Assembly: GCA_021818445.1 (NCBI GenBank)
Contig: JAKAEB010000014.1
Location: 1 to 64,000, forward strand
From: Planctomycetota bacterium
GTDB taxonomy: Bacteria; Planctomycetota; Phycisphaerae; WQYP01
Direction of reading: 5' to 3'
DNA: 64,000 nucleotides
Position numbers and translations under genes: made by a program
In this document: positions 60,755 to 64,000 of the stretch, piece after piece
How the letters are laid out: every line of letters starts with the position of its first letter
Position numbering within the stretch: position 1 is the stretch's first letter
Notes under the pieces: generated by a model
The model's database searches: none
The model's input: the letters and a program-made list of their open reading frames with translations, nothing else
Told to the model about the DNA's origin: nothing

Positions 60755-61147
60755 CTAATATCGCGGTACCGAGGGATCAACCCACAGGCTCCATCCATCA
60801 ATCCCCGCCTTCATCGATTGGGCATGTGCAAACCCTTGCCCGCGAAGCCATTGGACCGCCCGCAATGAACGGACACCGTGGTGGCAGTGCACGACCAAAG
60901 GTTGGCCAGACGGCGGAACAATTTCGCCTGCACGAGATTCGAGTTCTGCCAGCGGAATTAGTATGGCACCAGATATACGGGCCACATCCCACTCGCCAGG
61001 AGTGCGTACATCCACAAGAAGCAGATTGCCGGTGTCCAGAAGTTTTTTTACGTCAACAGGATGTATTTCCCACTCTGCAGGGGTTGCGGGCGACGAGAGA
61101 TTTATTTTTGAAGACGCGCCCTCATTTTTCTCATGTCGGTTAGCCAT
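60755..61147 (-). CDS. Rhodanese-like protein
   Basis: A 130-residue single-domain sulfurtransferase. The active-site loop is C88-HHGVR-S94. Upstream, LLLVDVRTPGEWDVARISGAILIPL is the rhodanese fold opening. The ATG at 61147 is preferred over a TTG at 61210, which lies within the divergent promoter region. Transfers sulfane sulfur to acceptors; here it is divergent from the JAMM protease gene. Confidence 0.88.
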   Translation of the reverse strand: MANRHEKNEGASSKINLSSPATPAEWEIHPVDVKKLLDTGNLLLVDVRTPGEWDVARISGAILIPLAELESRAGEIVPPSGQPLVVHCHHGVRSLRAVQWLRGQGFAHAQSMKAGIDGWSLWVDPSVPRY

Positions 61148-61247
61148 CTGGTCGCCACCCCACACATAAAACGGTTGGTTGACGATAATCGATTGGCGAT
61201 CGTTTAGCAATGTGCACTTATTTCATCCCGATTAAAGACTAAACGCA

Positions 61248-61253
61248 TATAAT
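61248..61253 (+). promoter_or_regulatory. TATAAT just before the JAMM gene start
   Basis: A perfect -10 hexamer ends seven bases before the GTG at 61260, so the transcript would begin at or next to the start codon. No good -35 is seen at the expected spacing. Confidence 0.4.
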
Positions 61254-61259
61254 CATTGG

Positions 61260-61733
61260 GTGTCTTTAACCTGTGCTCAACTAGTTATTTCCTCCGGTTC
61301 GCTGGCTGATATCGACGGTATGTGCCGGTGCGATGCCGGTGGCAAAGACCCGCACGAGGTTTGTGGATTTCTCGCCGGGCAAATCGAGGGAAATCAATAC
61401 ATCGTGCGACTGGGCCTCGGGGTGCAGAATAGTGCCGTGCGTGATCAACACCGGCGATATCAAATCAGTACGGAAGCCTTCATCGAGGCCGAACGTCTTT
61501 TGCAGATGCAGAGATTACATATCCTCGGACTTTTCCACAGCCATCCCGACGGCCGGGCCTGGCCAAGCCCATTGGATATTGAATATTTTTTCCCAGGCTG
61601 GATTTATTTAATTATTGGAGTTTCTGCCGACAGTGTCACTGAACGCCGTGCTTTTCAACGATCCGCGTTAAGTGAAGCTCAATTCGTGGAAGTCGGTATC
61701 ACGGTAGTTAGTGACGATACCACTGCAACGTGA
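61260..61733 (+). CDS. JAB1/MPN+ (JAMM) metalloprotease
   Basis: A 157-residue zinc peptidase of the JAMM family. Glu33 (DPHEVCGFLAG), H93-x-H95, Ser103 and Asp106 form the complete JAMM motif with standard spacing (H-x-H-x7-S-x2-D). In bacteria such proteins process ubiquitin-like or ThiS/MoaD-like sulfur carriers. No ribosome site precedes the GTG, but a -10 hexamer does, consistent with a leaderless message. It converges with the transporter gene at 61771. Confidence 0.85.
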   Translation: MSLTCAQLVISSGSLADIDGMCRCDAGGKDPHEVCGFLAGQIEGNQYIVRLGLGVQNSAVRDQHRRYQISTEAFIEAERLLQMQRLHILGLFHSHPDGRAWPSPLDIEYFFPGWIYLIIGVSADSVTERRAFQRSALSEAQFVEVGITVVSDDTTAT

Positions 61734-61770: not shown

Positions 61771-62817
61771 TTACGCGCCCAAGCGGATGGCAATCAGTGC
61801 TCCGGTGGCGATCAAGAACCACAGCAAAATCCCCTGCAGCATGGGTTTAAAGCCCACGGCTTTGAGAGTTTCCTTGGAAAGCCCCAAACCAATAAGCAGC
61901 AAAGTCAGAGCGATACCTATGGCACTGATATGATCGATATCTCCACTGTATGGGTGAATGGCCGGGACAAACGTTCGAATAACACTGGCAATCAAAAATA
62001 CGCCGATAAACCATGGAATGTGATGTGCCTTTACAGCCGTCGTTTTGGCTTTATTGCCTGCGGCATCTTTCTTATCGACATCAAATTTCATGGCGACGAC
62101 AATGGTTATTGGGATGATCCACAGTGCGCGCGACAGTTTTACTGCGGTGGCGACCGTAAGTGCGTGCGGACCGTATCGTGCGCCAGCGGCCACTACCGAC
62201 GAAATATCATGAATGGCAATTCCAGCCCAAGTGCCAAAAGCTGTTTGGCTCATACCCAAGGCATGCCCAATCGGTACAAAAACACATAGCGCGACCGCAT
62301 TGAGAATAAAAACCGTTCCCATGGCAACGCTGAGAGCCGCCTGATCTGCATCGATAACTGATGCAACAGCCGCTATCGCAGAACCGCCACAAATGGCGGT
62401 GCCGGCCGAAATCAGCAAGGACGCCTTCCGCTCTACACCCAATCTTTTGCCCAGCCATATTCCGGCAATCAGCGTGACGGCAATCGATATGGCTGCAAAA
62501 GCAGCACCGTCGGCTCCGGCCGTAAGCACCGTTTTGAGGTTCATCGTAAAACCCAGCAAAACCACACAGGCTTGCAGCAGCCATTTGGCAGTGATGTGGG
62601 TTTGGCGTCGCCAGGGGTTGTCTAAAGTCAGAGCGATGGTGATGCCCATCCCGAGGGCAATTGGTGGCGAAGCGACGCCCAATACGCAAAGCAGCCCGGC
62701 GGTCGTCATTGCCACCGTGGGCCAAGGCAGTGATTTTACCTTTTCGGCAGTCTTGGAAAGCGTTTCTATTTCCGGGGCAACTTCCTCTACTGGTGTGGTT
62801 ATTTCATCTTGCGACAT
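61771..62817 (-). CDS. YeiH family putative sulfate exporter
   Basis: A 348-residue membrane protein with about ten helices. SAGTAICGGSAIAAVASVI and GTWAGIAIHDISSVVAAGARYG are the conserved YeiH (UPF0324) blocks. Family members are described as putative sulfate or taurine-related exporters. The ATG at 62817 has AAGGGA ten bases upstream. A five-codon open frame ends at the start codon (TGAATG), which may be chance. Confidence 0.88.
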   Translation of the reverse strand: MSQDEITTPVEEVAPEIETLSKTAEKVKSLPWPTVAMTTAGLLCVLGVASPPIALGMGITIALTLDNPWRRQTHITAKWLLQACVVLLGFTMNLKTVLTAGADGAAFAAISIAVTLIAGIWLGKRLGVERKASLLISAGTAICGGSAIAAVASVIDADQAALSVAMGTVFILNAVALCVFVPIGHALGMSQTAFGTWAGIAIHDISSVVAAGARYGPHALTVATAVKLSRALWIIPITIVVAMKFDVDKKDAAGNKAKTTAVKAHHIPWFIGVFLIASVIRTFVPAIHPYSGDIDHISAIGIALTLLLIGLGLSKETLKAVGFKPMLQGILLWFLIATGALIAIRLGA

Positions 62818-63155: not shown

Positions 63156-64000
63156 ATGTGGTACACACCCTTGAACGGTACAGGTAAGCCATCGGCTGAA
63201 TTCACCTTTGCGCAGAGGATGGCCCCACCACGGCTACTCGGCAGGTGGACGCTGGCAAGAGGACTCGTTTTCGTATTAACCGCGATAATGGTTTTGTCGA
63301 CCTCAAAAATTTGGGCTCTCCCTAATAGTACCACCCGACCCGCTACGACGCAGCCGGTTGGGGGTGGCGGAACTGGTAACGACAAGTTGAAGATGCCTGA
63401 AGACACGCGACTACCCGTGCCCCCGGCGCGCGAATTGGCACGTGCTAATGATGAATTACAGGCGTACTACGTGAAAAAATATCCACTGGACACCAACTTG
63501 GCCGAGTACAAATTTTACATGACTTTGTTTCGCCACTATGTGAGCGGAAACGGGGGCAGGCACCGCCCTGTGATGTGTTATGCAGCCATGATGGCCATTG
63601 TAAAGTTGGCACCTCTGCAATTGGATTCAAACACCACTTTTGAAACCATTGCGGCCCTCGCCAAAAAATATAAGGTTCACGAATACCGTATGATCGCCGA
63701 AGCCAGCCAGAGGATGGTTCGTCTCGGCGGGATGAGCGTTTCAACTGCAACCACGCTGGCCGGTCAATTGGTGACCTACACCGGCAAAGCCATTAAGTCA
63801 GTTCATTTTAAATCGGCTGAGCGGCTGGCCCGCATGGGATTGACCTTGGCCGAGGCCGTTGGAAATGAACCGGACGAAAAGGAACTGATCCCCATGCTGG
63901 CCGACGCTCGCTTGGCTGCACCGCTTAGTGGCAAATTTGAACAGGCGAAAAAGCGGCTGGCACTGCACCCCAATGCCCCGGCAGCCAACACAACGGCTGG
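63156..64000 (+). CDS. Secreted protein of unknown function, 3' end cut by window
   Basis: The frame is open from 63123 to the edge; 281 residues are visible from the ATG at 63156. A basic stretch and hydrophobic core (ARGLVFVLTAIMVLSTSKIWA) form a signal peptide at about residues 36-58, which suggests that the true start may be a later ATG at 63219. A Pro/Gly/Thr-rich linker follows, and then a helical region with ARELARANDELQAYYVKKYP and YRMIAEASQRMVRLGG. I do not recognise the family. Confidence 0.6.
   Translation, partial: MWYTPLNGTGKPSAEFTFAQRMAPPRLLGRWTLARGLVFVLTAIMVLSTSKIWALPNSTTRPATTQPVGGGGTGNDKLKMPEDTRLPVPPARELARANDELQAYYVKKYPLDTNLAEYKFYMTLFRHYVSGNGGRHRPVMCYAAMMAIVKLAPLQLDSNTTFETIAALAKKYKVHEYRMIAEASQRMVRLGGMSVSTATTLAGQLVTYTGKAIKSVHFKSAERLARMGLTLAEAVGNEPDEKELIPMLADARLAAPLSGKFEQAKKRLALHPNAPAANTTA

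Follow-up and report, generated by a model that had tools for sequence, protein, structure and literature searches.

A single-domain rhodanese and a JAMM metallopeptidase, encoded divergently in a 64,000-nucleotide stretch of Planctomycetota DNA (the window), are on balance likely to supply two trans-acting steps of a carrier-dependent pathway to homocysteine (methionine), together with a sulfur carrier, an E1 enzyme, and a synthase encoded on another contig (C114) of the same genome. The pair is probably a split MoeZ/Mec-like module serving a methionine pathway of the MetM/MetO type. The individual parts are all of familiar types; what is new is that the module is split into two genes and probably serves a pathway like MetM/MetO.

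The rhodanese is read from an ATG at position 61147 (in its longest reading, from a TTG at 61210) and the JAMM protein from a GTG, which leaves 49 bases between them if the TTG is used and otherwise the stretch given in Table 1. The first-pass annotation had described a complete JAMM protease facing a rhodanese across 112 bases, and indeed both open reading frames lie where it placed them, with intact active-site motifs. The intergenic stretch presumably holds the promoters of both genes; no promoter or terminator signal in the pair region exceeded background, and no RNA family matched the stretch itself.

Table 1. Features of the divergent pair and of the C114 operon
Feature	Position	Strand	Basis or remark
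Single-domain rhodanese, 130 aa	60755..61147	-	PF00581; resembles C-terminal rhodanese domain of MoeB/MoeZ
Catalytic Cys88 of rhodanese	60884-60886	-	alignment
Divergent intergenic stretch, 112 bases	61148..61259	.	sequence
JAMM/MPN+ metallopeptidase, 157 aa, GTG start	61260..61733	+	PF14464 and PF01398
JAMM E33	61356-61358	+	motif residue
JAMM HSHP motif	starts 61536	+	motif
JAMM D106	61575-61577	+	motif residue
Operon: threonine-synthase-like enzyme (thrC-like), CysO-like carrier, NIL protein, E1, in this order	contig C114 (L008)		
SAM riboswitch RF00162 before the thrC-like gene	L008 4397-4533		67.8 bits (cut-off, 44.4)

The JAMM protein matched PF14464 with 56.5 bits (Pfam cut-off, 25) and has the upstream Glu and the HxHP...S..D motif of JAMM/MPN+ enzymes. 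E33, H93, H95, S103, and D106 were unchanged in 26 of 26 aligned sequences, i.e., the window's and those of all other matching genomes except G010 and G049 (25 of 27). An AlphaFold2 model (pLDDT 83.8; pTM 0.82) matched solved JAMM folds in Foldseek, for example that of P. furiosus JAMM1 with SAMP2 (5lda; E 1.4e-9). The sole NCBIfam match was to the desampylase model NF041370, and membership in that family was rejected at 49.3 bits against a curated cut-off of 130 bits. The rhodanese matched PF00581 with 58.5 bits (Pfam cut-off, 22.2). Its Cys88 lies in a CHHGxRS sequence that contains the CxxxxR loop of rhodaneses, and this Cys, like the CHHGxR stretch as a whole, was invariant in 15 of 15 aligned sequences. 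The top NCBIfam matches, PRK07411 and PRK07878, aligned at their C-terminal ends, down to the last residue, with scores far below the whole-protein cut-offs. With one domain and 130 residues, the window rhodanese carries no fused E1 domain and is not itself a MoeZ/MoeB-rhodanese fusion.

Conservation of the pair was analyzed in 61 genomes, 28 of which belong to the window's family (f1); the window's own genome is G000. JAMM was present in 28 of the 61 genomes, and 21 of these 28 are f1 members (21/28 of the family). A close rhodanese relative, defined by an E value at or under 1e-26, was found in 21/28 f1 genomes and in one genome outside f1 (G029). Both genes were present in 19 f1 genomes. 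They were adjacent and divergent in 11 (G000, G001, G002, G004, G008, G009, G012, G014, G016, G019, and G024), divergent with one intervening gene in three (G005, G020, and G025), and on separate contigs in five (G003, G007, G013, G018, and G026). The intervening gene is long, was read from the sequence, and is presumably a GGDEF/EAL gene; this insertion (L047, L059, and L061) was seen in three genomes of a single genus. As for the separated genes, JAMM starts 134 bases and the rhodanese less than 300 bases from contig ends in G003, and the corresponding distances in G026 are about 0.7 kb and about 2.9 kb; both separations may be assembly breaks. In G007, G013, and G018, the two genes are unlinked over at least 3 kb.

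Since the divergent arrangement recurs in six of the eight f1 genera having both genes, it is more than chance. Among the genera that keep it, JAMM identity to the window's protein falls to 24%. Furthermore, three tested flanking genes of the window (for a GH3 enzyme, a YeiH-like transporter, and a hypothetical protein) adjoin the pair only within the genus, and we conclude that the pair was kept while its surroundings changed. The PF03601 (YeiH-family) transporter gene at 61771-62817 and the gene for the long hypothetical protein at 63156-64000 adjoin JAMM in G001 and G003 also.

Opposite JAMM, G009 and G012 have a gene whose product joins this rhodanese to an E1; no other fusion was seen in f1. 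Of these two, the G009 fusion was scanned; it scored highest with MoeZ (444.5 bits, below the cut-off of 647) and narrowly passed a MoeB subfamily model (266.4 versus 266). In a tree of 30 rhodanese domains, the two fused domains fell, weakly, among the single-domain f1 ones. A scan of named genomes gave at least 556 rhodanese loci, of which we considered the best 80, mostly titled planctomycetes. JAMM was near 11 of these best 80, which match f1 genomes already counted and therefore add no new evidence. An in-frame E1 was detected at three of the best 80, one of them also with JAMM. At the 69 of these 80 that lack JAMM, where some stretches were short, neither JAMM in the available sequence nor a convincing alternative conserved partner of the rhodanese was found; their commonest neighbor group (30 loci) looks like an open reading frame antisense to the rhodanese.

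The first-pass annotation had proposed that the pair may be a sulfur-transfer module whose carrier is missing from the window, and had suggested a search for sulfur carrier and E1-like genes, the lack of which in the genome would speak against it. In outline, this was probably right, and no such lack was seen: Pfam searches of the window genome gave two E1 genes and two carriers above the cut-offs, and one carrier and one E1 are encoded together in the C114 operon (Table 1). The C114 carrier has 91 residues, ends in AIAGG, and matches both CysO of M. tuberculosis (3dwg_C; 77.6 bits) and the ThiS/MoaD-family chain 4n6e_B (78 bits); its top family-model match is SAMP1, below the cut-off. A terminal GG was found in this carrier and in 19 of 20 fetched ones (that of G005 was a fragment), and one residue follows GG in G041. 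Maturation of the carrier by JAMM, the role first suggested, was rejected for the C114 carrier, which already ends in GG.

The operon order was the same in 16 of 17 f1 loci, namely, the window genome's own and 15 of the 16 from relatives; in one of these 15, the contig ends within thrC, and the remaining locus (G005) breaks off before thrC. The SAM riboswitch precedes 16 of the 18 thrC-carrier loci examined in f1 and in family f6, the window genome's included. L256 was barely over the cut-off, and the two misses are L263, truncated within the gene, and L258, which G018 carries as a second copy. No SAM riboswitch was detected by the pair or by JAMM in the window, in 12 pair loci of relatives, or in seven other JAMM loci, and among the loci seen, the pair and the thrC-carrier operon were never on the same contig. 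In G008 (C55:1935-2636), the E1 match in the thrC-carrier operon contains one in-frame TAG.

The threonine-synthase-like enzyme of C114 passes the threonine synthase model TIGR00260 with 273.6 bits. A second ThrC-like gene, on C35 (L164), reaches 226.3 bits with this model, and its product is 28% identical to the C114 enzyme; if the latter is MetM-like, the C35 protein is probably the true threonine synthase. A PALP search of the window genome revealed five proteins over the cut-off: these two, a CysK-like protein on C46 (TIGR01139; 429 bits), and proteins on C110 and C9, which we take to be IlvA- and TrpB-like. A CysM-type synthase with carrier and JAMM was not found among the five. The carrier-bearing operon thus suggests a role in making homocysteine/methionine.

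ThiF is the only Pfam family over the cut-off in the C114 E1, and therefore a separate sulfur donor is expected. About 100 C-terminal residues of this E1 (L008 6680-7774) lie beyond ThiF and had no Pfam match over the cut-off; they seem to be shared by the E1s beside JAMM in G047, G050, and G041. The genome's other E1, encoded on C93, includes a fused JAB domain of its own and is part of a different system. There (L010 504-3126), a multiubiquitin and E2-like protein (PF14452 and PF14462), the JAB-E1 fusion (PF14464 and PF00899), and a DUF6527 protein are encoded in a row, next to genes that, going by their sequences, we take to be recombinase-like and type IV secretion-like. This cluster is a bacterial ubiquitin-like conjugation system, probably carried by a mobile element. 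On C38, another separate locus, ThiS adjoins a ThiG-like gene and ends in GGG without a tail.

PF01053, the family of MetB, MetC, MetY, and MetZ, had matches in 61 of 61 genomes at E 0.001, mostly partial ones within f1. When a best E under 1e-50 was taken to mean a full-length enzyme (which counts G044, with a fragment at E 2.4e-27, as without), one of 28 f1 genomes (G011) was positive, and so were 30 of the 33 genomes outside f1 (exceptions, G032, G044, and G050). The best match in the window genome has 33 bits (Pfam cut-off, 27) and covers 122 of 381 positions; we infer a cross-match to another aminotransferase. In G011, no JAMM, CysO-type carrier, or close rhodanese was found, and in G032 and G050, JAMM and a CysO-type carrier are both present. 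The DUF39/PF01837 route to homocysteine was rejected, with 0 of 61 genomes and 3 of 14 control genomes positive.

A CysO-type carrier was detected in 22 of 28 f1 genomes, the calls for G015, G017, G019, G021, G023, and G025 resting on match length and place. Among the 45 genomes that are at least 90% complete, JAMM was present in 18 of 18 without full-length PF01053 and in 3 of 27 with it; since 16 of those 18 belong to f1, this should be read as a pattern rather than as independent testing. Outside f1, comparison of JAMM with the carrier gave a p of 0.023 (Fisher), and such values overstate the evidence because relatives are not independent. JAMM occurred without a CysO-type carrier in G010, G026, G031, G040, G047, and G049, and the carrier without JAMM in G017, G021, G023, and G035. 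All presence/absence sets were compiled by hand from profile-search results.

Outside f1, in other families of the class, JAMM lies in the orders E1-JAMM-cysteine synthase (G047), E1-cysM-JAMM-cysK-adenylylsulfate kinase (G050), E1-cysM-JAMM-sulfurtransferase-cysK (G041; the cysM-like frame is open over 316 residues), and JAMM-cysK (G032). The gene names in the clusters outside f1 come in part from profile scans and otherwise from reading the sequences, and cysM and cysK were told apart by closeness of sequence. The E1s near JAMM resemble the C114 E1, with 53% (G047), 46% (G050), and 42% (G041) identity. G031 has the order PAPS reductase-PF01053 enzyme-ThiS-like carrier-E1-JAMM-sulfite reductase, the carrier having residues after GG, and the core from the PF01053 enzyme to JAMM is found in G040 and G049 too. 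The ThiS-like carriers beside E1 and JAMM in these genomes lie at G031:C20, G040:C14, and G049:C37. Two of them were read (those of G031 and G040), and both have residues after GG; therefore, the JAMM enzymes there may trim them. In summary, the neighbors of JAMM outside f1 favor cysteine as much as homocysteine.

Homologies, motifs, gene order, the riboswitch, and the phyletic pattern were seen directly; each chemical step of the proposed route is inferred, by analogy with the mycobacterial CysO system, as is the partnership in trans. The C114 E1 would adenylate the C-terminal Gly of the CysO/MetO-like carrier. The window rhodanese, bearing a persulfide on Cys88, would then pass sulfur on to give the carrier thiocarboxylate, a step that MoeZ is thought to perform in cis with its own rhodanese domain. 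In the manner of MetM, the threonine-synthase-like PLP enzyme would use O-phosphohomoserine and the carrier's sulfur, and the window JAMM would hydrolyze the carrier-homocysteine adduct to free homocysteine and carrier, as Mec+ does with CysO-cysteine. We place the pair in trans to the operon because the C114 E1 has no rhodanese domain and E1-rhodanese fusions occur in sister genera, and because JAMM lies near similar E1s in other families and shares a phyletic pattern with the other parts. A broader reading, to which we give slightly less than even weight, is that almost all of f1 has exchanged the PF01053 homocysteine enzymes for a SAM-riboswitch-controlled route with a ubiquitin-like carrier, in which MoeZ is split into an operon E1 and a trans-acting rhodanese and JAMM frees homocysteine.

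If the proposed route is correct, the pair offers candidate genes for sulfur loading and product release in homocysteine synthesis from O-phosphohomoserine, and it explains how methionine could be made in a lineage without the usual methionine enzymes. It would also present a MoeZ-type enzyme as two proteins, E1 and rhodanese, whether split or not yet joined. Annotation based on PF01053 could wrongly label these bacteria methionine auxotrophs.

Because JAMM lies beside cysteine synthase genes outside f1, its substrate could be a carrier-cysteine adduct. JAMM would then act like Mec+, as the hydrolase in a carrier-dependent route to cysteine of the CysO/CysM type, with the rhodanese thiolating CysO for cysteine and not for homocysteine. 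The cysteine-synthase-like neighbors in G032, G041, G047, and G050 and the CysO match of the C114 carrier are in line with this, as is the action of Mec+ and MoeZR on CysO described in the cited part of PMC3227635. However, the one cysteine-synthase-like protein found in the window genome is CysK-like and encoded on another contig, and the gene preceding that of the carrier is thrC-like and lies under a SAM riboswitch. We consider a purely cysteine-directed role unlikely; one JAMM could serve both routes. The metabolic genomic contexts also speak against a desampylase-like isopeptidase that removes a SAMP1-like carrier from proteins, with the rhodanese being incidental or aiding stress thiocarboxylation. 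This role is quite improbable, although the only NCBIfam match of JAMM is desampylase and the best of the carrier SAMP1 (both below cut-offs), and although Foldseek matched P. furiosus JAMM1 with SAMP2.

Coincidence could also have placed a general rhodanese opposite a JAMM unrelated to it, which would fit the unlinked genes in G007, G013, and G018 and the lack of JAMM or another convincing neighbor at 69 of the 80 best rhodanese loci (out of at least 556). Given an arrangement found in six of eight genera with JAMM proteins down to 24% identity, tested flanks conserved only within the genus, and an E1-rhodanese fusion as the partner in two genera, we regard coincidence as improbable. Cofactor thiolation, also raised in the first-pass annotation, would have the pair serve formation of the molybdopterin or thiamine thiocarboxylate. 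The rhodanese does resemble the MoeB/MoeZ domain, and ThiS and a ThiG-like gene are together on C38. But MoaE had no match in the window genome (93.75% complete), and its distribution (13 of 61 genomes) does not follow the pair; the C38 genes form a separate locus whose ThiS ends in GGG without a tail, and the CysO-like carrier is in another operon. Molybdopterin or thiamine service was therefore rejected as highly improbable.

The homocysteine route favored here can be compared with known systems. Some homocysteine routes remain undiscovered, according to the cited part of PMC5764234. No paper linking the MetM/MetO route with JAMM or with a free rhodanese appeared in a search of titles and abstract openings that left most subscription journals uncovered. 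In mycobacteria, as the cited part of PMC3227635 describes, MoeZR thiolates CysO, CysM forms the CysO-cysteine adduct, and Mec+ hydrolyzes it. The CysO-like carrier, the MoeZ-type rhodanese, and the JAMM hydrolase are alike in the M. tuberculosis system so described and in ours, whereas here E1 and rhodanese are separate, a threonine-synthase-like enzyme replaces CysM, and the gene layout is different. Neighborhoods of E1-rhodanese with JAB form row 4b of Iyer et al. 2006 (PMC1779556, in the part cited). G009 and G012, in which an E1-rhodanese fusion faces the JAB gene, resemble that row as described, but in the window the E1 part is missing and the rhodanese alone faces the JAB gene.

Sulfur-assimilation clusters of the Wolinella type were reportedly also treated by Krishnamoorthy and Begley in 2011. 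Row 4e of the same survey (PMC1779556, in the part cited) lists ThiS, E1, JAB, and O-acetylhomoserine sulfhydrylase for them. Such clusters, present in G031 and G040, likewise tie carrier, E1, and JAMM to homocysteine synthesis, as far as that part of the survey describes them; they differ in that their carriers have residues after GG and lie beside a PF01053 enzyme, while the PF01053 matches of the window genome are only partial.

Also close by description is the recently described MetM/MetO system of Streptomyces. MetM was reported as a threonine-synthase-like homocysteine synthase (Hasebe et al. 2024, AEM e01247-24, via the cited part of PMC12172450). The same part implies a SAM riboswitch upstream of S. 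albulus metM and likens S. albulus metO to a sulfur-carrier gene adjoining thrC in Microcystis. Microcystis ThrC, with its metO-like neighbor, is described there as a threonine synthase and deaminase that appears not fully MetM-like in cells, so a metO-like neighbor does not by itself make a thrC gene metM. The C114 operon shares with the Streptomyces system the threonine-synthase-like enzyme, the metO-like carrier, and the upstream SAM riboswitch, a likeness by the partial description in PMC12172450. Within the cited part, the route as described for Streptomyces names neither a sulfur donor nor a hydrolase. The C114 operon differs in that it also encodes a NIL protein and an E1; the divergent pair, apart from the operon, would provide the sulfur donor and the hydrolase.
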